64,000 nt of DNA, from contig JASJAW010000023.1 in assembly GCA_030066795.1 (NCBI GenBank), positions 1-64,000 on the forward strand, given 5' to 3'. Position numbers and translations under genes: made by a program. The stretch's first letter is position 1. Each line of letters starts with the position of its first letter. Positions 1-18,740 of the stretch are shown here, one piece after another. The notes under the pieces were generated by a model. The model did not search any database, was not told where the DNA came from, and was given only the letters and a program-made list of their open reading frames with translations. This DNA is from Dinoroseobacter sp. Its GTDB lineage: Bacteria > Pseudomonadota > Alphaproteobacteria > Rhodobacterales > Rhodobacteraceae.

Positions 1-27
1 TTAACTCTGCGGATCGACTGACCAAGC

Positions 28-54
28 AAAAGACGGCCCGGAGGCCGGGCCGCC
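28..54 (-). terminator. Rho-independent terminator
   Basis: A 7-bp GC-only stem (GGCCCGG at 35-41 pairing with CCGGGCC at 45-51) is followed, in the minus-strand direction, by a T-rich run (GTCTTTTG). It lies about 40 nt past the stop of the minus-strand membrane-protein gene that ends at 92 and probably ends that transcript. Confidence 0.6.
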
Positions 55-91
55 TTGAGGCGCAGCATAGCTGTCAGGGAGGAAAGACCTG

Positions 92-1141
92 CTACGCCAG
101 CTGCAAGAACCGGGTTTCCGCCTCTGCCATGTGAGCATCGCGCTGACGTTGAAGATTCGCGATCCTGGCAAGGGCTTCGTCAACGGTTTTCTCGCGGATG
201 GAACTCGCATCTGAAATCACCGCTTCAAACCCTGAGCGCTCCGTAGCAAGGGCGTTAAGTTGGGCCTCAAGAGGCGCCATGAGCTTCTCTGTCAGCAGGT
301 AGTCCTCACAGACCCGCACATCACGGCGTCTTCCTTTTTCGGTCCGGCTGCGGAGCACCGCCCGAATGCCCAAAGCTGCGGAGAACAGCACGTCGGACAA
401 GACATGGGTCACGAGCAAGGCTGTGCCCAATGCCGACGTTGGGAACAAGATCTCCATTAGGCTCGGTTCAGCCGCGTCGAGCGCGAATAGTACTTCTTCT
501 CCGCCTTCAAGACCAATGAACAGCCAGCCAGTCAGAACGGCCCAGATCGCAAACACGACCACCCCGAGCACCACAACGCGCTTGCCTATCCGGCGTAGCT
601 TCGTCAGATCTGGCTCGAATGCGACAAAGGCCGCGATCCCTGTTGCTGCAAGCACCACTGGAAAAGCATAGCCAATCGAGCGCAACCAGGAACCGCTGAG
701 TTCGAGGCTGTAGGTGGAGCTTTTGACGAAAGCCGCCACAACATAGACCGCCATCACAAGGGCTGCGAGGCTTAGCACAAGCTCAAATGCTGCCTTTATC
801 TTCTCGCCCGTTGGCAAACGATAGAGTTTGTCACCGCTACGTTCATACCGAACCTCATAGCGCAACGAAGTCTTTAGCTTGGTTGCCAATGGGTTCAGTT
901 TTTGTTCCGTGCGCGCTTCGTCTCGGCTGATCCGGTCAATGTGCGCTTGAGCTTGCGCCGCTGTTCCGCGTGTCGCAATCGCTGCCAAGCCCTCCGCTAT
1001 TCGGCTTGCTGCCAGCTTCGGGTCTGCGGAAGAGAGGGCGGGTTTGAGATCTACATCCGTCAACTCCGGCGTATAGAGCTCTTTCCGCAGGCGCTCTGCG
1101 GTTGTAAGAGCGTCGGGTTCAGGCAGCATATGTACGTTCAT
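92..1141 (-). CDS. Membrane protein with coiled-coil tails, unknown function
   Basis: I do not recognise a family. The 349-residue protein has a soluble N-terminal part (about residues 1-115), four hydrophobic segments near residues 119-139, 155-175, 188-211 and 234-260, and a charged, probably coiled-coil C-terminus (about 275-349, rich in Glu, Arg and Ala). There is no signal peptide, so both ends are probably cytoplasmic. It lies 137 nt downstream of the TPR-CHAT gene on the same strand and could be co-transcribed with it; a terminator follows at 28-54. A membrane anchor or pore partner for the CHAT protein is possible, but this rests on position only. Confidence 0.7.
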   Translation of the reverse strand: MNVHMLPEPDALTTAERLRKELYTPELTDVDLKPALSSADPKLAASRIAEGLAAIATRGTAAQAQAHIDRISRDEARTEQKLNPLATKLKTSLRYEVRYERSGDKLYRLPTGEKIKAAFELVLSLAALVMAVYVVAAFVKSSTYSLELSGSWLRSIGYAFPVVLAATGIAAFVAFEPDLTKLRRIGKRVVVLGVVVFAIWAVLTGWLFIGLEGGEEVLFALDAAEPSLMEILFPTSALGTALLVTHVLSDVLFSAALGIRAVLRSRTEKGRRRDVRVCEDYLLTEKLMAPLEAQLNALATERSGFEAVISDASSIREKTVDEALARIANLQRQRDAHMAEAETRFLQLA

Positions 1142-1278
1142 GTCAGGTCTCCTTGTTCAACTGAGACCATGCTGCTGCAAAAGCCATTCCCTCTAAATGA
1201 AATGAAACTCTAGATAATGAGTTGGTAGCCAGAATAAATGGCAGGAAATGCTGTGCTGTGTCATCAAAAGCGCCGGTC

Positions 1279-4200
1279 TCAGGGCCCTATACCGCCTGCA
1301 TCAGTGCCTATCGCTACATATGCTGCCCAATAAAATGCGCGTCGATTTAGATCAAGCTCGGCCTTCGAATGAGTGTCAGGCGGGGACGGCGCTCTGAGCA
1401 ATGCTTCGGGCTTCGCCTTGCTCTCGCCATTTCCCACGCGCGAAATGGGAACCGGGATAGCCGTAGCCTGAGAGGTTGCTTCGATAGCGGGTGGTAGCAA
1501 AGTAGCAGGGTCAGGGTGTGGTGATCCGTGTTCGAGGATATAGGACAACGCCCTGTCGCCCCCATAGGCGGCGGCATGTTGTGCCTGTGCCAGTGCGATC
1601 GGCATCGAATAATTGATTGAGCCAAGGTGTAGCGCCAATGCCGCGTCCAAGAGCAGTTTGGTCGCATCCGGTGTGACGGGAAAAAGGGTTGATACGACCA
1701 TTGGGACGCTTAGCGAAAGTGCATGGGCAAAGCCGGAAAACTCATCCGGCACCAACAGGCCCACGGGAGCCGTTTCGCAGGCGGCCAAGATGCACATTCG
1801 AACCCGCTGAAGCTCAGCAGCTTCTTCAACCAGTCTATCGATTGTCATCATCTCGCCCGGCCATGGACCATCGACACTCTCGACCCCTTCTTGGGTCGCT
1901 GCGAGCATCAGACCTGAGTCGGTTCCGCGGTCGCGATCCCAGCCTCCATGACAGAAGAAAACCGCATGAGAGGCGTTGGATAGCGCATCACAAACGGCAG
2001 GGATCGTAGCGCCCCGATGCAAAAGCTCGGTACGGCGATCCGGCTCAAACTGCGTCCATCCTGGAGCACGCCAACCCAGCATGCGCTTGGGACGTCCCAA
2101 TGCATCTCGCTTTGGGACCAGGTTCCAAGACGTCTCAGTTTTCTTGTAGTTTCGCTCGACCGCAAGGTCCTCGGTTGGATCGGCAATGCTGAGAAGATGA
2201 CGTGGGCCTGTGGCGCGGGTCCGTGCTCGGTCATGGGCGATACACCACGCCGTCAGGCTCTGACTGTAGGCGACGGGCCAATCGCTTAGAAATGGCCGGT
2301 GCATATGACCCGCACGTGCTGCGCCAAGCGGAAGGCCCGCCATACGGCCCGGCGGGATCAGCGTAATCGTTCCCAGTCTCCGCCCCCCAGGTGTTCCGCG
2401 ATCAAGAGCGGCATGCAGCGGCCCCATCAAAATTTCCCACAGTTGTACGAGAAGACGGTCCAAAGCTGCCATAAAACGCTGCGCGGCTGGACTGAGCGGA
2501 TCCCAGACTTGCTGGCTGACATTTGCGAAAGTGTGCGCGTAGACCTGTGTCCAACCCGTCTCTGGTGTTTCGAGAATGCGATCGAGTGTATGAGAGGTGA
2601 GCCCGGGCAGATTCAAAAAAGAAAGACCAAAGCCGGCTTCAGAACCCGACACTATAAGGACGCCGCCTCCGGTTTCTGAGATCACGGGTACCGCTAGCCG
2701 ATCGTGGTCGCCGAGGGTCGCTTTTAACTTGGCTGGATCGGAGCGTCCAAGGCCCCAGCTCTGCAACGCATCAGCGAGCGCTGTATCGAGATTAGTTTGA
2801 GCCGCTGTTAGATCGGTTTGTGCCAGCTCAAGCTCTGCACTTGTCTCATTATCTTCTCGTCCCGACTCTTCAAGCAGTTCTGTTAAATGGTCCACTTTTG
2901 CGCGCGCTTCGAACAGAATTGTGCGCAGATCAGCTAGATTCTTGCTCTCGTCGGCAAGTGCAAAGTCTCGCGAGGCGCGCACAGACCTTCCTTGGGTTAC
3001 GGCGTCGAGCGCTCCGGTCAGATCGCCTTGGCGAGCGCACAGTACCGCCAGCCGATCTCCGACACCGGCGATCGCCCTCAGGGCAGCTTCTTGCCCTTCG
3101 GTATCGGGTAACGACATCACCAGCCGGAGTCCCTGAGACAAGACCTCCTGGAGAGCTCCTTTCGCCAATCGGTCCTCGGCCAAGAAAAGCGCTCGGCAGC
3201 GAACCTCTGCGGCAGAAAGCCAAGCACGCGGTTTGACAAAAGGTGTGTAGGTCGCAACAGCACGATCGGCGCACGCAATAGCACGCTTTAGTCTGGCGAC
3301 GCGATCGGAAGCGCCGTTTTGGGCCTGCCAAGTGGTCAGCTCTGCAAGTGCCACCAAGGGATCGAACGCATCTACGGCATCCTCCGATCCTTCGAAAACA
3401 TCAAGTGCACGGTCAAAAAGAGCCTCCGCGCGCCGAGCATCTTGGTTCAGCGGATCAATATTGGCCTCTCCATCGGAGGGCAGAACCTTCGCCCGCATCG
3501 CGTACGCCAAGCCACAGTTGAACGAAGTTGAGGCTATGGAGCGCGCGTCATGAGGCATTTCAAGCATAGCGATGTAACGCTCCAAAAGACCGATCGCTTC
3601 GTCTAAATCCTTTAGGCGCTCGTTTCCGGACAAAGAGCCCGCGCGTGTCAGAAGCGCGGCACCCTTCTCAGCTCCTATGTCCGCTAGCAGCTGCGCATCG
3701 GTTTCGGAGTCATAAACCGTCATCGTCCGATCAAACGCTTCAATGGCCTTGGAAAGGCTTATGCGTGCCGCCGCACCCGCGACGTAGTCGCCTCTGTTGC
3801 TCCAAGCCGATGCGAGATTGCGGGCCACAAGCGCGGCGCCAAAATCATCACCAGCCTCTACCTTCATCTCATAGGCGCGTTGGAACATGGCGATGCCGCG
3901 ATCAATACTACGCAGGGCCTCCGCACCAATGTGGGCCTCGCCAAGACTGGCGTGGACGATCGCTTGATCCATAAGACAGCTGGCCTGTTCGCTTACTGCA
4001 TCGAGGCGACGCCAAATCTCCTCTGCTTCGCGATGGCACTTTAGAGCCTCGGACAGTTGTGCCCGCGCAGTCGCCCCTGTCATGCGGCGTGACATTGACC
4101 AACGAGCGGAGCCTCTTTGCGACCACGCTCGGCCCAAATCACCTTCGTTTCCTGGCATGTGGAACGTATCGATGGCACCGGCGCAAAGCGCTTCAGCAGC

Positions 4201-5193
4201 CTCGAAGTCCTTCAGACCCTCGCGCGCGGTACGCAGACGACCACGATGACTGGTGACGACTGCTTGGTTGACCATTGCCTTCACCCGCGATCCGCGATGC
4301 ACCTCGCCGCTCCAGATCTCCCGTAATGCCGCGAACCCCTCTATTGATTCCGTTAGAGCCACCTCTCGGGCTTCAGCCGTCTCACGATTGGCTCGCTGAA
4401 AATGGAGAATCGCAAGATTGAATTGAGCAAGAGATGCGGTCTCCACATCCTCCTGCAAGCGCGCCATTCGAACGACGTGCTGCAATAGTTCGACTGCATC
4501 TTTAGTGTCCCGAGCAGAAGACGGGCCGCTTGCAAGGTTTGCGCGGTTCTTCAGGCAGCTTGCAAGATTGCTGAGCACCTGCAGGTGATCGCGTGGATGG
4601 TTTTCAGGTCCCCAATGCGCACGCAGGTATTCATACGTGGTGATTGCATTGGACAGGTCTTCCTCCGCATTGTCCGACGCCCCGGCGGCCACGCGATCCA
4701 CGCGGATATTCGCATCGAGAAACTGAGCATCTGCGCGCAGCGCCGCTGACAGTGTCGCGTCGTTTGTGCTTCGGGCAACTTCAAGCGCGTTGGCGCGCAG
4801 GTTCTTGGCCTCCTCAAACGGTGCAATCAACGCAAGGTCCTTCATCTGCCTCGCACGTGCCAGATAGACCACATCCCGCGACAGGCCTTGGACCAAGTTG
4901 GGCCAATCTGCAGAGAGCTCGAGCAAGCCGCGTGGATCGCCGTCGTTGGTTTGGCTCTCCGGCCAGATCAGCGAGATAGATTCGCTAACCGATATCGATC
5001 TCGTCATGTCTTCCAGCTGAAGAACGGCCAGAGTTTGTAGAAGGCGCAGTTGCGTGCCTTCGCTCCTGGCCTCGATGTCGCATTCAAGCAGACTGGATTG
5101 GGCCGCAGTCCTCTGCTCCAGCGTTAGTCCGGCGATGAAGTCGCGAACCTTCGCATCGGCAAGTTCAGCGAGGGTAGATACAAAATCACTCAT
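1279..5193 (-). CDS. TPR-rich protein with C-terminal CHAT (caspase-like) protease domain
   Basis: This 1304-residue protein looks cytoplasmic. Most of its length (about residues 100-720) is alpha-helical repeats of TPR type, for example stretches with SLAQFNLAILHFQRA. The C-terminal third matches a CHAT domain (caspase family, clan CD): a His-Gly pair in HAVFFCHGG (His about 1082) and a Cys in CILAACETA (Cys about 1139) form the expected catalytic dyad, and the family's closing motif appears as FYWAAYVAIG near the end. About 60-70 extra low-complexity residues separate that closing motif from the core. The start at 5193 is chosen because GAGAGGG sits just upstream; an in-frame start 54 nt earlier lacks this. 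CHAT proteins usually cleave a partner when the repeat domain senses a signal; the partner here is unknown, but the neighbouring exported proteins are candidates. Confidence 0.85.
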   Translation of the reverse strand: MSDFVSTLAELADAKVRDFIAGLTLEQRTAAQSSLLECDIEARSEGTQLRLLQTLAVLQLEDMTRSISVSESISLIWPESQTNDGDPRGLLELSADWPNLVQGLSRDVVYLARARQMKDLALIAPFEEAKNLRANALEVARSTNDATLSAALRADAQFLDANIRVDRVAAGASDNAEEDLSNAITTYEYLRAHWGPENHPRDHLQVLSNLASCLKNRANLASGPSSARDTKDAVELLQHVVRMARLQEDVETASLAQFNLAILHFQRANRETAEAREVALTESIEGFAALREIWSGEVHRGSRVKAMVNQAVVTSHRGRLRTAREGLKDFEAAEALCAGAIDTFHMPGNEGDLGRAWSQRGSARWSMSRRMTGATARAQLSEALKCHREAEEIWRRLDAVSEQASCLMDQAIVHASLGEAHIGAEALRSIDRGIAMFQRAYEMKVEAGDDFGAALVARNLASAWSNRGDYVAGAAARISLSKAIEAFDRTMTVYDSETDAQLLADIGAEKGAALLTRAGSLSGNERLKDLDEAIGLLERYIAMLEMPHDARSIASTSFNCGLAYAMRAKVLPSDGEANIDPLNQDARRAEALFDRALDVFEGSEDAVDAFDPLVALAELTTWQAQNGASDRVARLKRAIACADRAVATYTPFVKPRAWLSAAEVRCRALFLAEDRLAKGALQEVLSQGLRLVMSLPDTEGQEAALRAIAGVGDRLAVLCARQGDLTGALDAVTQGRSVRASRDFALADESKNLADLRTILFEARAKVDHLTELLEESGREDNETSAELELAQTDLTAAQTNLDTALADALQSWGLGRSDPAKLKATLGDHDRLAVPVISETGGGVLIVSGSEAGFGLSFLNLPGLTSHTLDRILETPETGWTQVYAHTFANVSQQVWDPLSPAAQRFMAALDRLLVQLWEILMGPLHAALDRGTPGGRRLGTITLIPPGRMAGLPLGAARAGHMHRPFLSDWPVAYSQSLTAWCIAHDRARTRATGPRHLLSIADPTEDLAVERNYKKTETSWNLVPKRDALGRPKRMLGWRAPGWTQFEPDRRTELLHRGATIPAVCDALSNASHAVFFCHGGWDRDRGTDSGLMLAATQEGVESVDGPWPGEMMTIDRLVEEAAELQRVRMCILAACETAPVGLLVPDEFSGFAHALSLSVPMVVSTLFPVTPDATKLLLDAALALHLGSINYSMPIALAQAQHAAAYGGDRALSYILEHGSPHPDPATLLPPAIEATSQATAIPVPISRVGNGESKAKPEALLRAPSPPDTHSKAELDLNRRAFYWAAYVAIGTDAGGIGP

Positions 5194-5259
5194 TTGCGCC
5201 CTCTCTCGAGATTGCCCTTTGCGATCATAGCCAAAGAGCGGGCACAAGCCACAAACAAC

Positions 5260-5871
5260 TTACCTTGGGAGTCGGGGGGGCGGCGCTACTCTACGGAACT
5301 GCGATCCCATTCGACCCGGCGGCGTGGATCGGAAGGTCTTGAGCTGCTTTGGCGTCGAGCGCGCTACAACGGGGTAGGCATTCTTGATCCGGAAACCCAG
5401 TTTGCTCTTGGGGTCACGCTGCAAAACAACACGCGCCCCGTAAGCCGGTATCGTCATGCCGCCAGGCGTCGCCGCGGTGCCCAGCTTGCCCTGGCCCATG
5501 TTGACACCAGCAAGCGGTTTTTTGGTTTGTGTCCCGATCGCCTTTACTGTTCCAGGTTTCGCTGTCTTGAGCCACTGCGCGATTTCCTTGCTGTTGGCTT
5601 GGATCAGTTTGCGGGTGGCTTTGATCGCAGTCTTCTTATCGGCGAAGCTGCTTTTAGGCTTGTCCGAAGCGGCTGCTTGCGACTTCAGGCCTGATCTTGT
5701 CTGCCCATAGTGGTTGCGACTGTGTGTCGTGCTCCGCTTGAGTTCTTTGCCGACCCATTGAGGGCTGGCCATCTTAACAAGCTGGTCGCCGCTCGGGGTC
5801 TTCGGGTTTGCGGTTGCCTGTGCGCTGACGAACAAAAACGCAGCCGCAATAGCAAGTGTCAGGTTTCTCAT
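5260..5871 (-). CDS. Exported protein with bacterial RNase A-like (CdiA toxin type) domain
   Basis: The 203-residue protein begins with a signal peptide (hydrophobic residues 4-20, cleavage near ATANP). Residues about 50-170 match the pattern of the bacterial RNase A-like domain known from CdiA toxins: H-x3-H-[VY]-G-x-T (HSRNHYGQT, 50-58), SSFADKKTA, a helix ending in IAQWL, ARVVLQRDP and the closing xAYP (NAYPV). From memory of the Yersinia kristensenii CdiA toxin, catalysis uses His, Arg, Thr and Tyr. Here His54 and Tyr166 are present, but the Arg position appears to be Gln65 and the Thr position Asn164. The protein may thus be a weakened RNase, an RNA-binding relic or a decoy. No immunity gene is recognisable beside it. 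It is 66 nt upstream of the CHAT gene on the same strand, so the two may be co-transcribed. Confidence 0.65.
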   Translation of the reverse strand: MRNLTLAIAAAFLFVSAQATANPKTPSGDQLVKMASPQWVGKELKRSTTHSRNHYGQTRSGLKSQAAASDKPKSSFADKKTAIKATRKLIQANSKEIAQWLKTAKPGTVKAIGTQTKKPLAGVNMGQGKLGTAATPGGMTIPAYGARVVLQRDPKSKLGFRIKNAYPVVARSTPKQLKTFRSTPPGRMGSQFRRVAPPPRLPR

Positions 5872-6097
5872 CTGAGCCTCCAGTGGGTTGAAGTCTCTTT
5901 CCGATAGCGAAATCGGCCCCCCTCAGGACAGGTAGTCGAATGGCAGTTAATCCATCTGTCCCCAGAGAAAATGGGACTTAATTCCACTTCAGAATTTCTT
6001 CCCATTTCGTCCAGATTTCACGTTTGCAAATAGAGGGTTGGGCCGTTGATCAAGAGGCAGCAGCAAGCATGCTGTCAGATCAAACAGGAGAAAAACC

Positions 6098-6736
6098 ATG
6101 TCGAAATTTACCACCTTCCTCGCTGCCGCGACTGCAGCCAGTCTAGCAACGGGGGCCATTGCACCCGCCAATGCACAGGGTGCGATGATGAATACGGGTC
6201 AACAGGTGCAGGCCACTCAGGCCGGTGTCCATCCCACTTTTGCCCACTTCCGCGAACCACAGCTGATGACTTCTCTATACGACGGCGACATCCGCAACAC
6301 CGGCAAGTCGAAGGTCGACACCATGTATTATCTGATGAAGATCATCTCGGTCTTTGACGAACCTCAGGTTTGGTATCGGATCGGCCAACATGCGGACGTA
6401 GCTCTCGACCCAGAACTCGCCCCGGTGGCGCGTGGATTGATCGCCACCAATCCTGAGCTTATGCGCCCCATGGGTCAGGCTGGTCTCCAGGGAGTGCTAG
6501 GTGCGTTGGTCGCCATGGGGAAGGAACGTCGCAATCAGATGAACCGCGGAACGTTTGACCCTTTCGCCGAGATCGCAGCTTTCAACCGCGGCCAGATTCA
6601 GCATACGAGCCCCTTCGCCCGTCTCGCCGCAAACGCGAACCACGACGCAAAGAACCTGATGCTTCTGGCGCAAGAAGACCCCGACGCCTTCATGCAGGCT
6701 TATGAGGGGATCCGGCAATTCGTCTATCGTTACTAA
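6098..6736 (+). CDS. Exported protein of unknown function
   Basis: The 212-residue product has a clear signal peptide (residues 1-26, cleavage after PANA). The mature part is mostly helical and not repetitive, and I see no known catalytic motif. CAGGAG a few nt upstream supports the start. It is divergent from the RNase A-like gene across a 226-nt spacer and is followed 14 nt later by another exported protein, so the two form an operon. Function is unknown. Confidence 0.75.
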   Translation: MSKFTTFLAAATAASLATGAIAPANAQGAMMNTGQQVQATQAGVHPTFAHFREPQLMTSLYDGDIRNTGKSKVDTMYYLMKIISVFDEPQVWYRIGQHADVALDPELAPVARGLIATNPELMRPMGQAGLQGVLGALVAMGKERRNQMNRGTFDPFAEIAAFNRGQIQHTSPFARLAANANHDAKNLMLLAQEDPDAFMQAYEGIRQFVYRY

Positions 6737-6750
6737 GTTGGAGATGTGAC

Positions 6751-7122
6751 ATGCAGATTGGAAAACTCTTCATTCCTAGTGCGCTTGCGTTCATCACAAG
6801 TCTTGCACTGGTGGCCGGAGCAAACCCAGCGCAAGCAAAGCCACCCTTTCTGAAACCCAGTTTCAACGCAGCAGCAAAGGCACCAAAACTAAAGCCCCAT
6901 TTCAATTGGGTCGCCCGTAAGCCGGCTCCAATTTCCCGTGGGTTCAATGGTACTGCATCCGGCAAACCGCCAAAGATCAGTAAGCCATTCAATAATGTGG
7001 CCCGAAAGCCGATCCGTCCCCGAACGTTTTCGGGCAACGGTCAACAGAAAAGCGGCCGGGGGACCGCCGGCTTTAGCGGTCCGAGGTTCCCCGGCCCCAA
7101 GTTCCGGCCCGGTGGATTCTAA
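6751..7122 (+). CDS. Small exported basic protein with F-N repeats
   Basis: The 123-residue product has a signal peptide (about residues 1-29, ending AQA). The mature part is very basic and rich in Pro, Lys, Phe, Asn and Gly. Four imperfect repeats centre on Phe-Asn pairs at residues 38, 51, 65 and 80 (PSFNAAAKAP, PHFNWVARKP, RGFNGTASGKP, KPFNNVARKP), then a Gly/Arg/Pro tail ends GPRFPGPKFRPGGF. Nothing suggests an enzyme; a cell-surface, nucleic-acid-binding or peptide-like role is possible. It is in one operon with the exported protein just upstream, and a terminator follows. Confidence 0.7.
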   Translation: MQIGKLFIPSALAFITSLALVAGANPAQAKPPFLKPSFNAAAKAPKLKPHFNWVARKPAPISRGFNGTASGKPPKISKPFNNVARKPIRPRTFSGNGQQKSGRGTAGFSGPRFPGPKFRPGGF

Positions 7123-7162
7123 CTCGTCAATCCCGTGACCTATTGGTCTTGTGGGCCACTAA

Positions 7163-7195
7163 CCCGCGCCGATGCTCCAAGGCGCGGGTCTTTCT
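7163..7195 (+). terminator. Rho-independent terminator
   Basis: An 8-bp stem (CCCGCGCC at 7163-7170 with GGCGCGGG at 7181-7188) is followed by TCTTTCT. It ends the transcript of the two exported-protein genes before it. A possible upstream ATG for the next gene (7172) falls in the loop, which argues against that start. Confidence 0.65.
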
Positions 7196-7231
7196 GTTGT
7201 CAGATGGCAGAACTTCGCTAGGCTCTGCGTC

Positions 7232-8212
7232 ATGGATCTGGACTGCCTCTGCACCCCTGACACGAACCCGCTCAACGCGGCCGCTCGCGCCCCGAATGCG
7301 CCTGCGCGCAAGGGGCGACCCAGCGAAGCGCTGGGAATGTTTGATCTGCGCGACCATATCGACATCGCCTTGCGTCGACTTGGCATAAAACCTGAAGCAG
7401 CAGATCGCGATCAATGGTTGCGCCAAGAATGGGCGGCGCGTAATCCGACCGCAAGCTTGGAAGGTGAGACCTACTTCATCAGGAAACTCCACGGGAAACG
7501 CGACCTCGTGGGTCGAGATTTTAAACTTCTACACAGTATTCTGGGCCTGTATCAGATTGGTCTCATGGAGTGCTGTATTTGGCTTGAGTTTGCGAAGGGG
7601 ACCCCTTCGCGCAAATTGAAGTATACCCCTGCTGCCTTTGACTCACTTCTACAGAGACATTTAAAAAACTACGAAGATCCTTTCTCTGTTTTTGCGGACA
7701 ACACATCTCTGGCCTTGTTCGCGGAGTATGAGCGCGCAGGACTAGAAAACTTGGCCATGGTCGATGGCCACGAAGCACCAAAATCTTCGCAGTCGAATCC
7801 GCACACCCGCCCGCGGCGCATGCGCGTCGGCGAAAGCTATCGCTTGATGGTTGCTTCTGTAGTGCCTGGAAACCTCTTTGTGCTTCACAGTCGCAAAGGG
7901 AGCGATGTCGTTCAGATCGCCAATGAAGCTTTTGGCCTAGACCGTACTGAAACGTGGATGCCTGATGACATGTTCTCGAGCCCCGCTGTGCAAGCCCCAG
8001 CGGAGCCCGGGGTTCGCAACGTCATCTTTGTGAATTGGCCGGCTGGTCTAGACCCGACGCCGTTTGGTCTCGGCGATCTCTTCGAAGAGAGGAATACTCA
8101 GTTTGGTTTTTCGCTTCTGGCGCGTCTTGCAGGTGCCCTTCTGCAAACACGAACCGCAGACGAGCAACGGCGGCTACATCTGAGACTACTTCCAATGGAC
8201 GTGGTCGAATGA
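7232..8212 (+). CDS. Hypothetical protein, possible DUF4384-like C-terminal module
   Basis: The 326-residue protein has no signal peptide or membrane segment. Residues about 1-180 are unrecognised; residues about 197-310 (starting MRVGESYRLMVASV and including GNLFVLHS) resemble the beta-rich DUF4384 module often found attached to caspase-like or CHAT-linked proteins. That match is by eye and weak. The start at 7232 is preferred over 7172 because the latter lies inside the upstream terminator; the ribosome site is weak in both cases. The gene may belong functionally to the CHAT block at 1.3-7.1 kb. Confidence 0.6.
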   Translation: MDLDCLCTPDTNPLNAAARAPNAPARKGRPSEALGMFDLRDHIDIALRRLGIKPEAADRDQWLRQEWAARNPTASLEGETYFIRKLHGKRDLVGRDFKLLHSILGLYQIGLMECCIWLEFAKGTPSRKLKYTPAAFDSLLQRHLKNYEDPFSVFADNTSLALFAEYERAGLENLAMVDGHEAPKSSQSNPHTRPRRMRVGESYRLMVASVVPGNLFVLHSRKGSDVVQIANEAFGLDRTETWMPDDMFSSPAVQAPAEPGVRNVIFVNWPAGLDPTPFGLGDLFEERNTQFGFSLLARLAGALLQTRTADEQRRLHLRLLPMDVVE

Positions 8213-8991
8213 TTGGACCGCCCTTGGGGGCTTTCTGAGGAAATGTGCTTGGGATGGCGCGGCGCTGAGTGCTGAGCACTGTAAAAGTACCGCGATCGGA
8301 AGAGTGGAACGTCGCTCATGAACGTTTCGAGACGACGAAACCGAGCCCCATTAACTACCTGGCACCTGACCTGAGATCATTCGCTGGACCGCAATGCACT
8401 TGGTTTGCTTTCCGCTCTCAATGCGCAACATTGAAAGTCTACCGCATGGGCGCTGGATTGATAACCTGCGTGATAATACCGAACACGCATGCGTATTTAG
8501 CGAATACCATTTCAGGTTATACTTTGATGGATACGGACAAGCAGTGAGTCTTATCAAACGGGGAATGCAGGTATCTGCAGTTGTTGGCCGGCGTGGCTAA
8601 GAAATTTACTCATTCCGATGCACCTGATCTGAACAATTAACTGTTATTGCGTAACGAGTTGAATGTCAGTTTGTTCGTATAGTGGTCATTCATCCGGTCT
8701 GCTGCGCGAAAGAACCTGACAGGAAACGTCAGATGTCTCCTATGAGCGGAAAGCCGACGGTCGTGATGCAATTCAGTCCGCCTCCAGCTCAACAGCTCGC
8801 CCGTCAAGCGAATGGAGAAAACGGGGAAGGCTTGCGAGCCCGGCGCGCAAACAACTGAACACAATTGCTTATTTTGAAGTATTGGAGAGCACTGTTCCAA
8901 GTAACGCTCGCAAAGAAACCTAACTGCTGAAATTTGTTGCTAAAAATGAAAAGCGGTGTTCAGCTTGCAGGAAGTAACTAGGGAGGAAGTT
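8213..8991. other. Gene-free region upstream of the ABC importer
   Basis: I see no convincing coding sequence on either strand in these 779 nt; the short open frames have no ribosome sites and no recognisable domains. The region looks more AT-rich than the genes to its right. The promoter of the importer operon must lie near its right end. I looked by eye for Fur, Irr and RirA-like boxes and saw none. No tRNA, insertion sequence or long repeat is visible. Confidence 0.5.
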
Positions 8992-10017
8992 ATGAAAATA
9001 AGAACGACTGCTATCGCCAGCTCGATATTCACACTGACAGTTTCAGCGGGTGCGGCCTATGCCGATAGCCTCACGCTCTATTGCTCGGCCCAGGAAGACT
9101 GGTGCCAGCTTATGGCCCGTAGTTTTGAGGATGCCACCGGTATTGACGTTGACATGACGCGCAAGTCGTCCGGCGAAACTTTTGCGCAAATCCGGGCAGA
9201 GTCGTCTAACCCGAAAGGGGACGTTTGGTGGGGTGGCACCGGTGATCCGCATCTTCAGGCCGCCGAAGAGGGTCTGACGATGGAGTACATGTCGCCTGTG
9301 CGCGACCAGCTCCATGACTGGGCTATCAGCCAGGCCGAAAGCGCCGGAAATAGAACGATTGGGATCTACTCAGGCGCGCTTGGCTATGGCTACAACACGG
9401 ACCTCCTGGCAGCAAATAACCTGCCGGAGCCGACCTGTTGGAAAGACCTTTTGAAGCCTGAGTACAAAGGTCATGTTCAGATGGCCAACCCGAACTCTTC
9501 GGGTACTGCCTATACGACGTTGGCCTCTATGGTTCAGATCTTTGGTGAGGACGAGGGCTTCGAATTTATGAAGGGCCTTCACGCAAATATAAACCAGTAC
9601 ACCAAGTCAGGCTCGGCGCCGATCAAGGCTGCTGGCCGAGGCGAGAACACGATCGGCATCGTTTTCATGCACGACGCCGTCAAACAAGCTGTTTCGGGCT
9701 TTCCGGTAAAGGTCGTGGCACCCTGCGAAGGCACGGGCTATGAAATCGGATCGATGTCGATCATTGACGGGGCTCGGAATGAGGACGAGGCCAAAGCCTT
9801 TTACGACTGGGCTTTGAGTACGGAAGCACAGAACCTCGCGTTGCAGGTCAACGCATTCCAAGTGCCGTCTAACAAAGGCGCCGATACTTCGGAAAGTGCG
9901 CCTGACATGTCGTTGATCAAGCTGATCGACTACGATTTCAAAAAGTACGGCTCTTCGGACGAAAGAAAGCGTCTGTTGCAGAAGTGGGACGAGGAGGTCT
10001 CTGTCCTTCCGCAATAA
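8992..10017 (+). CDS. ABC transporter periplasmic binding protein, Fbp/AfuA type
   Basis: The 341-residue protein is a type-2 periplasmic binding protein. Residues 1-24 are a signal peptide ending in AYA; the mature start DSLTLYCSAQEDWCQ is typical of the ferric-iron (FbpA/AfuA) group, and IGIYSGALGYGYNTD is a conserved core segment. GGGAGGAAG just before 8992 fixes the start. It is the first gene of a three-gene importer operon. This group also includes binders of phosphonates and polyamines, so iron is likely but not certain. Confidence 0.85.
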   Translation: MKIRTTAIASSIFTLTVSAGAAYADSLTLYCSAQEDWCQLMARSFEDATGIDVDMTRKSSGETFAQIRAESSNPKGDVWWGGTGDPHLQAAEEGLTMEYMSPVRDQLHDWAISQAESAGNRTIGIYSGALGYGYNTDLLAANNLPEPTCWKDLLKPEYKGHVQMANPNSSGTAYTTLASMVQIFGEDEGFEFMKGLHANINQYTKSGSAPIKAAGRGENTIGIVFMHDAVKQAVSGFPVKVVAPCEGTGYEIGSMSIIDGARNEDEAKAFYDWALSTEAQNLALQVNAFQVPSNKGADTSESAPDMSLIKLIDYDFKKYGSSDERKRLLQKWDEEVSVLPQ

Positions 10018-12234
10018 GTGACTGACTCGACAACAAAGACGTCCCATCCGGTTTTGAGGTTTTGGATCATTGCCGGATGGGTCGGTTTTTTCTTTCTACC
10101 ATGGTACATGGTAGATGGCGGCCTTTGGTCGTTTGAATGGCTGTTCGACGGCTACCCGTTCGATGAAGACTACGCGCCAGCGGCGTTTCTTATCGCGCAA
10201 GGCGAAAAGCTCTGGCTTACTCCGTTATTGATACCTCTCGTCCTTCCGTTGCTCGTTGTCCGGCGACAGAAATCCGACCCTCTTTATGCTCGCATACTTA
10301 TCCTATCGGGCGCTTTGGGGTTTGGCTGGCTGATTGCGCAAGGTTTCGGTATAGGCATTCGCGGCTTCAATTTCGAATGGCTTAAGGCGCTTTTTGGGGA
10401 GCCCAAGATCCGACAGTTCGGCATGGGATACGGCGCCATGATTTGTGCGTCGGCGTTTTTGTTTCTTCTGACGCAAGGGATTGCTGCTCGAGGTGCCGTA
10501 AACGGCGATGTGTTCGTGGTCGGCGCGATTGGCGGTGTAATTACCATCGTTACTGCGTTTGTGTTCTTCCCGATCGCCAACATGTTGTTCGCCGCATTCG
10601 TTACGGACGACGGCGCCTATTCTCTGTCCGTCTTCGCGTCGAAGTTCTTTGACGACCGTCTTTGGGGGCTTGGATGCTTTGCCGGCGCCCGATGCGGTGC
10701 CGCCTGGAACTCGTTGTTCCTTGCCGTTTTGGTGGGGCTGATAACGACGGCGCTTGGTCTTTGTTTTGCGCTTGTGGTGACCCGGTCCGGCTTTCGTTAC
10801 AAGCGCGCGATCCGCGCTCTTACCGTTTTGCCGATTATCACTCCGCCTTTTGTGATCGGGCTGGCGCTAATACTGCTGTTTGGCCTGTCTGGTTCTGTGA
10901 CCGTCTTCGTGGCAGATCTCTTCGGGGTTCAGCCAACGCGTTGGCTATACGGCATGCCGGGCGTTCTGATCGCGCAGACCCTTGCTTTCACGCCCATCGC
11001 ATTCCTTGTTTTGATTGGGGTGGTTGAAGGGGTTTCTCCGTCAATGGAAGAAGCCGCGCAAACACTGCGCGCGAACCGCTGGCAAACCTTTCGCACCGTC
11101 TCGTTGCCGCTGATGCGACCTGGGCTGGCCAACGCCTTCCTGCTGGGCTTCATCGAGTCCATGGCAGACTTCGGAAATCCACTCGTGCTGGGCGGAAATT
11201 TCGATGTACTGTCGACAGAAATCTTCTTCGCAATTGTGGGTGCGCAGTATGATCAGGGAAGGGCAGCGGTTCTTGCCATGGTGCTCCTGTTCTTCACGCT
11301 CTCGGCGTTTTATGCGCAACGTGTCTGGCTGGGGAAGAAGAGTTACACAACCGTGACCGGCAAAGGGGATGCAGGCGTGCATCCATTGATGCCAACCGGT
11401 CTGTCGGTGCCGGTTCTGATCATTGCACTTACTTGGGCGCTCTTCACAGGCATCGTATATGCGATGATCATCTACGGCAGCGTGGTCGAGCTTTGGGGGG
11501 TCAACAACTCTCTAACCTTCAAGCACTACGTCACAGCATTCAGCGTTCGTTTCGAAGAAGAAGGCATACGTTGGACCGGTGCAGCATGGGACAGTTTCTG
11601 GACGACGATAACCATCGCTGCGATCGCGGCGCCTTTGACGGCGGCTGTCGGTCTGGTGACAGCCTATCTTCTGACCCGGCAGACCTTTGCAGGTAAAGAC
11701 GCGTTCGAGTTCGGGACCATGCTCAGCTTTGCGATTCCGGGCACGGTGATCGGCGTCAGCTACATTCTGGCCTTCAACGTGCCACCGATCGAGATCACCG
11801 GGACAGGTGTTATTCTTGTCATAAGTTTCATCTTCCGGAATATGCCCGTTGGTGTGCGTGCGGGCATTGCGTCGATGAGCCAGCTCGACAAGTCGCTTGA
11901 CGAGTCATCTCTCACGCTTGGCGCGAACTCATGGCAGACCTTTAAACGTGTAATCTTGCCCTTACTCCGCCCGGCAATTCTTGCTGCGCTGGTCTACAGT
12001 TTTGTACGCGCGATGACCGCAATCTCGGCAGTGATCTTCTTGGTGTCGGCCAAGTACGACATGGCTACCAGCTACATCATTGGGCGGGTTGAGAATAATG
12101 ACTACGGTCTCGCGATCGCATACTCGACGACACTGATCTTTGTGATGTTGGGTGCGGTCGGGCTGCTGCAATTCCTTGTGGGCCGGGTGCAAATTGGAAG
12201 ACGAACACAGCTTGCTACGGAGAAAAAGGTATGA
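10018..12234 (+). CDS. ABC importer permease with two fused transmembrane domains
   Basis: The 738-residue inner-membrane protein contains two BPD_transp_1 domains in one chain, as in FbpB/AfuB. The EAA loops that touch the ATPase are visible as EEAAQTLRANRWQTF and DESSLTLGANSWQTF, each followed by a Pro-Leu-x-Arg-Pro motif. About 220 extra residues with several hydrophobic segments precede the first domain, longer than usual for the family. The start is a GTG that directly abuts the stop of the binding-protein gene; the nearest good ribosome site (GAGGAGG) is about 20 nt upstream, so translation is probably coupled. Confidence 0.9.
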   Translation: MTDSTTKTSHPVLRFWIIAGWVGFFFLPWYMVDGGLWSFEWLFDGYPFDEDYAPAAFLIAQGEKLWLTPLLIPLVLPLLVVRRQKSDPLYARILILSGALGFGWLIAQGFGIGIRGFNFEWLKALFGEPKIRQFGMGYGAMICASAFLFLLTQGIAARGAVNGDVFVVGAIGGVITIVTAFVFFPIANMLFAAFVTDDGAYSLSVFASKFFDDRLWGLGCFAGARCGAAWNSLFLAVLVGLITTALGLCFALVVTRSGFRYKRAIRALTVLPIITPPFVIGLALILLFGLSGSVTVFVADLFGVQPTRWLYGMPGVLIAQTLAFTPIAFLVLIGVVEGVSPSMEEAAQTLRANRWQTFRTVSLPLMRPGLANAFLLGFIESMADFGNPLVLGGNFDVLSTEIFFAIVGAQYDQGRAAVLAMVLLFFTLSAFYAQRVWLGKKSYTTVTGKGDAGVHPLMPTGLSVPVLIIALTWALFTGIVYAMIIYGSVVELWGVNNSLTFKHYVTAFSVRFEEEGIRWTGAAWDSFWTTITIAAIAAPLTAAVGLVTAYLLTRQTFAGKDAFEFGTMLSFAIPGTVIGVSYILAFNVPPIEITGTGVILVISFIFRNMPVGVRAGIASMSQLDKSLDESSLTLGANSWQTFKRVILPLLRPAILAALVYSFVRAMTAISAVIFLVSAKYDMATSYIIGRVENNDYGLAIAYSTTLIFVMLGAVGLLQFLVGRVQIGRRTQLATEKKV

Positions 12235-13301
12235 GCGAAACGACCATAAGCTCCAAAGCCGCCCCGGTTCAATTCGAAAAGGTCTCAAAAGTCTTCGGCA
12301 AAGACGTGATAGCTGTTGATGCAATCGACTTGCAGGTCGACGCCGGCAAGTTGGTTACCCTTCTAGGGCCTTCTGGATGCGGAAAGACGACAACCCTTCG
12401 CATGATTGCTGGGCTTGAGATGGCCAGTTCGGGACATATCCGCATAGGGGACAGGGACGTTACAAAGCTGCCTGCAACGGATCGCGATGTCTCCATGGTG
12501 TTCCAATCCTATGCGCTTTTCCCACATATGACTGTCCTTGAGAATGTAATGTACGGCCTGACATTCTCAGGCTTCGGCAAAGAGGAGGCGCGAAGCCGCG
12601 CACTGGCCGGGCTTGAGCTGGTTGGTCTTAAGGGATTTGATGCAAGGCTGCCTTCTGAGCTGTCCGGCGGACAGCAGCAAAGGGTTGCCGTTGCGCGCGC
12701 CCTTGTTCTCGAACCGCAGGTGCTTCTCTTTGATGAACCGTTGTCGAACCTAGACGCCAAACTACGCCGCCAGGTACGCGAAGATATTCGCGCCATTCAA
12801 CAGGATCTTGGTCTGACCGTGGTTTACGTCACTCACGATCAGGAAGAGGCATTGGCCGTGTCCGACGAGATTGTTGTGATGCGTAATGCTGCGATTGCGC
12901 AAAAGGGCACACCGCGCGAGCTTTACGACTCTCCGAATGATCGGTTTGTGGCGGACTTCATCGGCGAGGCCAACCTGTTGGCCTGTAGCATCACTTCGAT
13001 CGACGGGGAAACTGCAACCATCGAAATTGAGGGATACCAGCACCAGCTCCCGGCGCGTGGGCTAGGGATCGGACCCGCGACTCTTGCTGTCCGGCCTTCG
13101 CGTATAACTTTGGGGTCAGACACAGGTATTCCCGCGCTGGTTTCCAAAGCCACCTATGTAGGCGTCCGGATGGAGTACACATTGACCGGAGAGTTTGGAA
13201 AAGTCTTCGCGGTACAGGACGAAGTCGATGACCCACTGCGCCCTGGCATGCAGGTCAACATGTCATTTGCTTCTAAAGGACCGGTTCTCCTCTCCGATTG
13301 A
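12231..13301 (+). CDS. ABC importer ATP-binding protein, FbpC/PotA type
   Basis: The 356-residue cytoplasmic ATPase powers the importer encoded by the two preceding genes. Visible motifs are Walker A GPSGCGKTT, Q-loop FQSYALFPH, signature LSGGQQQRVAVARAL, Walker B VLLFDEPLSNLD and the switch His in THDQEEAL. A C-terminal TOBE-like regulatory domain covers roughly residues 270-350. It overlaps the permease gene by 4 nt (ATGA), which indicates translational coupling. The next gene is convergent, so this ends the operon. Confidence 0.92.
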   Translation: MSETTISSKAAPVQFEKVSKVFGKDVIAVDAIDLQVDAGKLVTLLGPSGCGKTTTLRMIAGLEMASSGHIRIGDRDVTKLPATDRDVSMVFQSYALFPHMTVLENVMYGLTFSGFGKEEARSRALAGLELVGLKGFDARLPSELSGGQQQRVAVARALVLEPQVLLFDEPLSNLDAKLRRQVREDIRAIQQDLGLTVVYVTHDQEEALAVSDEIVVMRNAAIAQKGTPRELYDSPNDRFVADFIGEANLLACSITSIDGETATIEIEGYQHQLPARGLGIGPATLAVRPSRITLGSDTGIPALVSKATYVGVRMEYTLTGEFGKVFAVQDEVDDPLRPGMQVNMSFASKGPVLLSD

Positions 13302-13319
13302 CCCTCCAATTGTCAGGGA

Positions 13320-14111
13320 TCATCCCAACCATGCCGCGTCCGCAATCGCTTTGATCTCGGGGAACACGGCGGGTGTGCCAACCACGACGCGTCCACCCTC
13401 TCTGATCATGTCATAGACGTCCTGATCCTCGATAGTTCCACCCGCCTCTTGCACGAGCAACTGTCCCGCAAGACAATCCCACGCATTCATGTGCTCTTCT
13501 ACATACCCCAAGAGCCGACCAGCCGCGACATATGCGAGGGAGAGAGCGCCACTGGCATTGCGATGGTACAAAGCTCCGCTCTTCATCAGAGCTTCGATGA
13601 CGTCCAGCACAGGCTCCGCACGAACGCGATTCGAATATCCCACTGAGACTGTCCCTGCGTTCAGGGGCACATCTGCCGCTACAGACAGGGTCTTTCCATT
13701 CAGCAACGCGCCTTTTCCGCGCTCGCCTACATACATTTCGGCAACGTTGGGGTCATGAATAACGCCGATTTCGATTTGATTGCTCGACACACCCGCAAGA
13801 ACAACCGTCCAGGCCGGAATGCCATTCACGAAATTCGTTGTCCCATCGATTGGATCAATGACCCAATCGAACCCGCTGGTACCTCGTTGAGCCCCATGTT
13901 CTTCGCCGAAAATGCCGTCGTCAGGCCATGCCTTTGAGAGCTCTTGCCGAATAAACGTTTCTACGTCCTTGTCTGCTTCGCTGACCCAGTCCTGCGCGCC
14001 TTTACGATCGACGATCAGGTTATCGCGATCCCGAAAATAGCTAAGTGCCAGTTCTCCAGCGGATTGGCAGACTTCGAAGGCAAAGGCCCTTCTATCAAAA
14101 GCGTTGCTCAC
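13320..14111 (-). CDS. Inositol monophosphatase family protein
   Basis: The 263-residue protein belongs to the Mg2+-dependent IMPase/CysQ/FBPase family. Metal-binding motifs are present: the Glu pair in FGEEHG, DPIDGTTNF, and WDCLAGQLLVQEAGG. It should hydrolyse a phosphate monoester such as inositol-1-phosphate, histidinol phosphate or a related compound; family members vary and the substrate cannot be read from sequence. The start codon is GTG. It is convergent with the ABC importer, 18 nt away, and stands alone on its strand. Confidence 0.9.
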   Translation of the reverse strand: MSNAFDRRAFAFEVCQSAGELALSYFRDRDNLIVDRKGAQDWVSEADKDVETFIRQELSKAWPDDGIFGEEHGAQRGTSGFDWVIDPIDGTTNFVNGIPAWTVVLAGVSSNQIEIGVIHDPNVAEMYVGERGKGALLNGKTLSVAADVPLNAGTVSVGYSNRVRAEPVLDVIEALMKSGALYHRNASGALSLAYVAAGRLLGYVEEHMNAWDCLAGQLLVQEAGGTIEDQDVYDMIREGGRVVVGTPAVFPEIKAIADAAWLG

Positions 14112-14759
14112 TGCTCTGGTGCTCCCATCCGTTGTCGTAAAGAGATACTAGTCCCTAAGTTGGCATTGCCAAAGGCGCCTTTCTTTTTCCGGGTACGACA
14201 AAGCGTCGATAGATGAATGTCTGAGAAAGGGTTTGGTTCTTGTAAGTGCAGTTTGTCGAGTACCAAAATCTGGTACGCGAGCACTCTGCTTCGCGAACAG
14301 CAGCTTTGTCCGCAAAGCGGACGAATGACATACCCCATGTCGTATCAAGACGGCCTGCTTGGTCGCGCACTCTGCTTGGCAAGGTCTGCGGACCGTTGAA
14401 GAGCGATTTCATTGTCCGTGTTTAGATTGACCGGGTATCTCCTGACAGTGCGCTTGAAGTGCGTTCTTTACAACGAAAGTGCAGAGCTTTGGGATGGTCG
14501 GAAGTCAGCCCGCTGACCCGGACCCGTACAATCCGCTCGTGATATCGATAAGGTCACGACGCGGTTGGATAAAATTGAGATGTACTCAACGACCGCTGCG
14601 TCCGGTACGAAATCGTTTGCCAGATAACGCGTCAACTGTCGGTGCTGAGGCCCCGCACAGGGTCGAACAACAAAATCCCGACCGTTTCTGATCTCGATCA
14701 TGTCGCGTGCCAAATTGTTCAGCACTCTTGAACGCATGGGTTCGGCTCGGGAGGTAGCT
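14112..14759. other. Gene-free region with several short perfect palindromes
   Basis: These 648 nt between the divergent IMPase-family and ppsA genes contain no supported coding sequence. Three exact inverted repeats stand out: TTGGCA-T-TGCCAA at 14160-14172, GTACCA-5 nt-TGGTAC at 14260-14276 and GTCCGC-AAA-GCGGAC at 14308-14322. The first is immediately followed by the self-complementary AAAGGCGCCTTT. They could be operators for ppsA or the divergent gene, or RNA hairpins in a leader. No regulator gene lies nearby. Confidence 0.45.
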
Positions 14760-18663: not shown

Positions 18664-18740
18664 TGGCGCGCTGGGGAGGATTCGAACCCCCGACCCCTTG
18701 ATTCGTAGTCAAGTACTCTATCCAGCTGAGCTACCAGCGC
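18664..18740 (-). tRNA. tRNA-Arg (anticodon ACG)
   Basis: A full cloverleaf reads on the minus strand: acceptor GCGCTGG/CCAGCGC, D-arm with AGCTCAGCTGGATAGAG, anticodon stem CTTGA/TCAAG around the loop CTACGAA, and T-arm GGTTCGAATCC. The anticodon ACG (A34 normally edited to inosine) reads CGU, CGC and CGA. The 3' CCA is encoded (18664-18666). Confidence 0.97.

Follow-up and report, generated by a model that had tools for sequence, protein, structure and literature searches.

The window, the whole stretch of 64,000 nucleotides that was analysed, is the first 64 kb of a 125,990-base contig, and the block described here starts at the contig end. Six open reading frames (ORFs), termed G1 to G6, fill positions 92-8212, where a previous sequence-only reading had placed them. 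The minus strand carries, in reading order, G3 (5871-5260), G2 (5193-1279) and G1 (1141-92), which are separated by 66 and 137 bases. The plus strand carries G4 (6098-6736) and G5 (6751-7122), followed by G6, which ends at 8212. A purine-rich stretch resembling a ribosome-binding site can be seen by eye ahead of the ATG of each gene from G1 to G5. Both units are closed by a GC-rich hairpin with a T-rich end. The hairpin behind G1 (30-56, minus strand) has 12 pairs, an energy of -23.1 kcal/mol and a z of -4.2, and it is likely the terminator of the G3-G2-G1 unit. The hairpin behind G5 (7162-7189, plus strand) has 9 pairs, an energy of -19.7 kcal/mol and a z of -3.4, and it likely terminates G4-G5. 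Between the two units lies a divergent intergenic region, which extends from 5872 to 6097 by the ORF positions and presumably holds the promoters of both. A search for sigma-70-type promoters in positions 1-9500 found 0, against 3.5 expected in shuffled sequences. The start of G6 (about 326 aa; 7232-8212, plus strand) is affected by the second hairpin. ATG 7172, the start given in the ORF list, sits in the loop of the hairpin at 7162-7189, so translation probably begins at 7232 or later, with 7232 or 7340 preferred over 7172. A further hairpin at 7319-7335 lies just 5' of the possible start at 7340 and may affect G6 expression or mark the later start.

To the right of G6, an AT-richer stretch (8213-8955; 49.5% GC) contains no ORF longer than 92 aa, which agrees with the gene-free border that had been described. 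A comparison of 8213-8991 with plasmids gave no match. The ten genes scanned further rightward comprise a three-gene ABC transporter, an inositol phosphatase gene of the inositol monophosphatase family, and genes for a PEP-utilising enzyme, a histidine kinase, an oxidoreductase, a VTT protein, a protein without a family and MipZ. At the DNA level, none of the five other same-genus genomes searched has the first part of the transporter (8956-10200), so the variability may reach past the block. The ABC transporter genes (8956-13301) have some of the lowest GC contents of the genes examined. Rfam gave no match in positions 1-15000, and the one tRNA of the window, a tRNA-Arg at 18664-18740, is far from the block. 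The block had also been thought to be lower in GC than its surroundings. Its GC content is 57.1%, the remainder of the window having 59.0%, but 22 of 112 sliding 8.2-kb windows are equal to or below the block, and the five with the lowest values begin at 5501-7501 and cover mostly the right-hand genes. The claim is weak; a low-GC island was rejected because the GC of the block is not an outlier.

G2 (1304 aa; 1279-5193, minus strand, ATG at 5193) joins a TPR-like repeat part to a CHAT domain. The CHAT domain matches PF12770 with an E of 2e-21 and 77.2 bits, against a curated cut-off of 24. The dyad residues are His1082 (1948-1950) and Cys1139 (1777-1779). Both are invariant in a three-sequence alignment of G2 with two distant CHAT proteins, which were found by tblastn of the CHAT half of G2 against plasmids. 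The three-row CHAT profile matches the Craspase TPR-CHAT chains of the PDB at about 2e-12, with the CHG and ACE motifs aligned, and it spans residues 601-698 of the Csx29 chain 7y9x_B. This range contains H615 and C658, which are reported to be catalytic and to be needed for the cleavage of Csx30 (PMC10028731). As a single sequence G2 has no PDB match at E<=1, and the profile match thus leans on the two other rows. From its domain score and the position of its dyad, G2 is predicted to be a CHAT peptidase with protease activity. The sequence-only reading of a full-length CHAT protein whose intact His/Cys pair aligns with the catalytic dyad of solved CHAT proteases is therefore upheld. The TPR part of that reading is less firm, as the Pfam match to TPR_12 reaches 0.011 and stays below the cut-off. 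G2 is taken to be probably cytosolic because it has no signal peptide and no hydrophobic segment near its N-terminus.

One reading of the dyad alignment with the Craspase chains is a Craspase-like or SAVED-CHAT-like defence system, in which an intracellular phage-related signal would activate the TPR-CHAT protein and a toxic activity would be released. Of the bacterial CHAT proteases with an established trigger that were considered here, Craspase responds to target RNA within the cell (PMC10028731), and SAVED-CHAT is named among the cyclic-oligoadenylate effectors (PMC11417357). The resemblance to the TPR-CHAT protein Csx29 of type III-E CRISPR lies in the repeat part, the CHAT domain and the CHG...ACE dyad motifs, and a strain-restricted distribution would also fit defence. 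However, G2 has 1304 aa against 716-751 aa, and its partners in the window are membrane or exported proteins, three of them with export-like signals. By Pfam, no Cas7-11/gRAMP, Csx30 or sigma-factor gene is present in the block and the ten right-hand genes, which include no cas gene; the left side is the contig end. A search of the six window proteins against PADLOC-DB 2.0.0 gave no family at E<=1. A defence role of this kind is improbable on this evidence.

G3 (203 aa; 5260-5871, minus strand) has a signal-peptide-like start followed by an RNase A-like domain. It matches RNAse_A_bac (PF18431) at 2.2e-12 with 48.3 bits, against a curated cut-off of 27, and the PDB chain 5e3e_B at 8.6e-7, in line with the RNase A-like exported protein proposed earlier. 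The mature part is very basic, with a pI of 11.7. The structure 5e3e is that of CdiA-CT from Yersinia kristensenii, whose active site is reported to consist of His175, Arg186, Thr276 and Tyr278 (PMC9086364). When offsets are counted on the 5e3e_B alignment, G3 keeps the general-base His and the Tyr (His54 and Tyr166), whereas Gln65 stands at the Arg186 place and Asn164 at the Thr276 place; Lys63 is near the Arg186 place. In eight of nine other aligned members of the RNAse_A_bac family a Thr is found two residues ahead of the aromatic residue, the ninth (L010) being unaligned there. In MafB2, a toxin with an RNase A fold, the general-base His is reported to be needed, whereas two Lys residues near the Arg186 place are dispensable (PMC9970974). 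Given this precedent and the half-changed catalytic places, G3 may or may not be an active ribonuclease.

G3 could also belong to an antibacterial secretion locus. The protein would then be an exported toxin directed against competitors, G4 and G5 would help to export or deliver it, and the CHAT protein would process a component. PF18431 domains are described in contact-dependent and polymorphic toxins (PMC9086364, PMC9970974). A toxin of these kinds would be expected at the end of a large secreted protein with an immunity gene beside it. G3, in contrast, is a 203 aa protein with its own signal-peptide-like start, and Pfam and NCBIfam recognise no immunity family in the block; it differs from CdiA-CT in being free-standing with such a start and in its changed Arg and Thr places. 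The RNAse_A_bac domain does end longer ORFs in genomes of the family, and an NCBIfam model of RNase A-like lipoproteins matches G3 weakly (1.9e-8, well under the cut-off), both of which speak for such a locus. On the other side stand the change of half of the reported catalytic places, the lack of any immunity gene or delivery apparatus recognised in the block by Pfam, NCBIfam or PADLOC, and a G4-G5-G1-like set in Rhodovulum that has no RNase A-like gene. We regard a secretion locus as decidedly unlikely. Two of the longer ORFs, from two family genomes (L012 1044-1884 and L017 540-1884), have a middle part whose motif resembles that of a Mu F-type phage head protein. A related copy of these ORFs (L013) carries an in-frame stop.

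G1 (349 aa; 92-1141, minus strand) has no Pfam family. Its hydropathy profile contains four hydrophobic segments (121-139, 156-174, 189-207 and 241-259) flanked by long hydrophilic, coiled-coil-like tails, which matches the membrane coiled-coil protein of the sequence-only reading. G4 (212 aa; 6098-6736, plus strand) and G5 (123 aa; 6751-7122, plus strand) both have signal-peptide-like starts and would be the two additional exported proteins of that reading. The signal peptides of G3, G4 and G5 were judged by eye and by hydropathy, and the export, membrane and cytosolic placements of the locus proteins are predictions of this kind. The mature part of G5 is basic (pI 12.0) and rich in Pro, Lys, Gly and Phe. 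G6 has no Pfam family at E<=1 and no PADLOC or NCBIfam family, and no export signal was seen in it. The DUF4384 assignment once suggested for G6 thus found no backing, and a diverged copy below detection is possible. G6 may belong to the cluster or may be a mere neighbour. Single-sequence structure models had a mean pLDDT of 36 for G6 and 40 for mature G4 and were unused for fold searches.

The gene set is very rare and strain-restricted: in these searches, neither the CHAT gene nor the RNase A-like gene nor G6 had a close relative beyond its own genome. The genome and contig scans start from short peptide patterns, which make mainly near relatives visible, and the searches across genomes covered four of the six proteins (G2, G3, G4 and G6, not G1 and G5). 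On these terms, G2 and G3 were each found in their own genome only among 61 genomes, G4 among 198 and G6 among 295. A two-row G4 profile found only its own genome among 389, with up to seven candidates scored in each. In a survey of 394 family genomes, in which at most two candidates were scored per genome, G2 was found in its own genome and had six weak matches among the 393 others, all within the N-terminal repeat part. Genome contigs gave no match to G2 and the G4 profile, and viral contigs gave none to G3, G2, the G4 profile, G6 or the 397 aa Rhodovulum protein described below. A tblastn search of plasmids with G1, G2, G3 and G6 gave no match. In the open-licence literature, no description of the gene set was found among the matches listed, and none was found for DUF4384 together with a CHAT domain or for CHAT proteins in connection with RNase A-like proteins and the envelope.

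The CHAT domain is present in 45 of 295 family genomes (41 over the cut-off) and RNAse_A_bac in 10 of 295 (9 over the cut-off). Besides the genome of the window, three genomes have both domains, always on different contigs. One such genome (G010) has CHAT on contigs C4, C13 and C22 and RNAse_A_bac on C7; the respective contigs are C165 and C180 in G027 and C39 and C4 in G154. The contigs of G027 and G154 are short (12-16 kb), and linkage there is still possible. The proposal that the CHAT and RNase A-like genes stay together across genomes is mostly contradicted by these data. In forty stretches around family CHAT genes, nothing resembled G1, G3, G4 or G5 at E<=0.1, in a layout survey in which the CHAT gene was picked out by profile in only 23 of the 40. 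Two short ORFs were read as chance matches: one of 79 aa compared with G6 (0.023), and one of 87 aa compared with the Rhodovulum G5-like protein (0.025).

A tblastn search of plasmids with G4 gave a single record, plasmid pRGUI01 of Rhodovulum sp. P5. The homologue (202 aa) is 29% identical to G4 over 161 aa, and their alignment scores above all of 1000 local shuffles, with a Z of 18.9 in local and 16.1 in glocal mode (free end gaps). The locus corresponds to RGUI_RS20105-RS20120. The end of the G4-homologue gene is overlapped by one base by a 124 aa G5-like ORF, which is absent from the PLSDB gene table. Among 1,388 ORFs in 43 stretches this ORF alone fits the G5-like profile (90-170 aa with a hydrophobic start; the rest with a pI >10.5, a Pro content of 15% or more and a Lys content of 10% or more), the thresholds having been chosen after both proteins were seen and ORFs with unread letters having been skipped. 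Its alignment with G5 is no better than that of shuffled sequences. A likeness of kind between the two, judged by composition, is supported but not proven.

The G5-like ORF is followed by the gene of a 344 aa protein, whose hydrophobic segments start at 112, 146, 177 and 234, compared with 121, 156, 189 and 241 in G1. The alignment of the two proteins is no more than suggestive, with a Z of 2.9-3.0 and 12 and 10 of 1000 shuffles equally good. Of 206 genes of 250-450 aa in the same stretches, that of the 344 aa protein scores highest against G1 in raw terms (66, with 55 for the runner-up) and ranks third by Z. Two of the same 206 genes have four segments and a long N-terminal tail, and the spacing of G1 is found in the 344 aa protein only. 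Its identity as the G1 counterpart, judged from these features, is supported but not proven. Beyond it, a further gene encodes 397 aa and has a signal-peptide-like start. At its other flank, the G4 homologue has a large divergent neighbour that encodes 1365 aa. The 1365 aa protein has no Pfam match at E<=1 and no detected relation to G2, and the idea that it is a hidden CHAT protein was rejected (hhalign probability 0.2%). By eye, it (L022 10569-14666) contains degenerate P-loop-like and Walker-B-like stretches that recall inactive STAND proteins. No CHAT, RNase A-like or G6-like gene was recognised among the neighbouring Rhodovulum genes, and the divergent intergenic regions of the two loci have no likeness. 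The Rhodovulum proteins of 202, 344, 397 and 1365 aa match only themselves in tblastn against plasmids.

The Rhodovulum locus resembles the window in having a G4 homologue, a G5-like ORF, a G1-like protein and a large divergent neighbour. It differs in its large non-CHAT protein, its extra 397 aa protein and its gene order, since G1 is on the CHAT side in the window whereas the 344 aa gene lies behind the G5-like gene in Rhodovulum. Within the G4-G5-G1 set, the correspondence is by sequence for G4, by composition only for G5, and by architecture with a weak sequence signal for G1. The genes first described as one set are thus partly kept together, the G4, G5-like and G1-like members recurring and the CHAT and RNase A-like members not. 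The common part looks exported or membrane-bound, and the unshared part is the CHAT and RNase A-like genes, so the simplest reading is a core with an exchangeable partner. What recurs appears to be the G4-G5-G1 unit, joined by a large and probably cytosolic protein that can be exchanged, and the CHAT and RNase A-like genes appear to be local.

The same observations are also compatible with a chance neighbourhood in a variable region. In this case G4-G5, perhaps with G1, would form one unit, and the genes of the CHAT protein, the RNase A-like protein and G6 would be unrelated cargo that came to lie next to it. The absence of CHAT and RNase A-like genes from the Rhodovulum locus points in this direction, as do the three other genomes in which the two domains never share a contig, the hairpin between G5 and G6, and the adjoining transporter that is missing from the five same-genus genomes and makes the region seem variable. 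Unrelated cargo fits less well with the tight spacing of G3, G2 and G1 on one strand, closed by a single strong hairpin, or with the position of G1, which has a Rhodovulum counterpart, downstream of the CHAT gene in that unit. Chance is a doubtful explanation in itself, yet nearly as likely as a module. Our preferred explanation, which we put forward tentatively and at well below even confidence, is that the locus is a strain-restricted, two-unit cluster of an undescribed, very rare envelope-linked module, with a role in stress or conflict as the best guess. The intact CHAT dyad, the G4 homologue with its G5-like and G1-like neighbours, the large divergent neighbour and the hairpins that close both units argue for a module. 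Against it stand the existence of two loci only, the weak alignment of G1 and the lack of one for G5, the different place of G1, the unrelated large proteins and the dissimilar intergenic regions.

We infer the following signalling steps, substrate and purpose for such a module. The core would consist of the exported helical G4, the small, basic, Pro/Lys-rich exported G5 and the four-helix membrane protein G1. It would pair with one very large protein, here the TPR-CHAT protein, whose place in Rhodovulum sp. P5 would be taken by the 1365 aa protein unrelated to it. G4 and G5 would act on the cell surface or report about it, and G1 would relay this state through the inner membrane to the repeat part of G2, which would read it and order the His/Cys pair of the CHAT domain. 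CHAT would cut a cytosolic target, most likely a G1 tail or G6, and the outcome may be a stress response or self-limiting. G3 would be an accessory of this locus and may act beyond the cytosol as a cationic or RNA-degrading effector. The proposal that the CHAT protein cleaves a nearby partner needs to be narrowed in view of the predicted topology. Since G2 has no signal peptide and the exported proteins would be outside, cleavage of mature G3, G4 or G5 is unlikely; the G1 tails and G6 would be within reach and are the candidates.

More broadly, the locus could stand for a so far undescribed class of signalling or conflict systems linked to the envelope, in which a fixed exported pair and a G1-type relay would be combined with exchangeable giant cytosolic proteins, the TPR-CHAT protein being one of them, and an extracytoplasmic event would switch on caspase-type cleavage. 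This generalisation is rather unlikely at present. If it is true, the coupling of a CHAT protease to exported proteins through a membrane relay would parallel, in bacteria, the caspase signalling that is driven by receptors. The window cluster and the Rhodovulum plasmid locus provide two test objects with different large proteins and perhaps the same core.

CHAT genes with membrane-protein neighbours are also seen elsewhere. The best single-sequence relative of G2 in the 43 stretches is encoded in a CHAT operon on a plasmid of Nostoc sp. C052 (FD723_RS36555-36565; phmmer 3.9e-9). Its CHAT gene has a membrane-protein gene downstream, whereas its 111 and 507 aa partners are unmatched by any window protein. 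The 507 aa Nostoc protein was tried as a relative of G1, and a 313 aa protein behind a Bradyrhizobium CHAT gene as a relative of G6; both gave no signal. Three CHAT genes (L024 5118-10572, L066 71-4261 and L070 4790-9762), one of them that of the Nostoc sp. C052 plasmid, each have two neighbours, one an ORF of 111-122 aa and the other coding for a protein of 450-515 aa in which two segments are hydrophobic. The three CHAT proteins match each other, and their partners do not detectably do so. They are possibly a second CHAT-membrane arrangement. On plasmid p131_1 of Bradyrhizobium sp. 131 (L023 18-5700 and 7431-20942), repeated DUF4407 membrane-protein genes or fragments lie near two TPR/CHAT genes.
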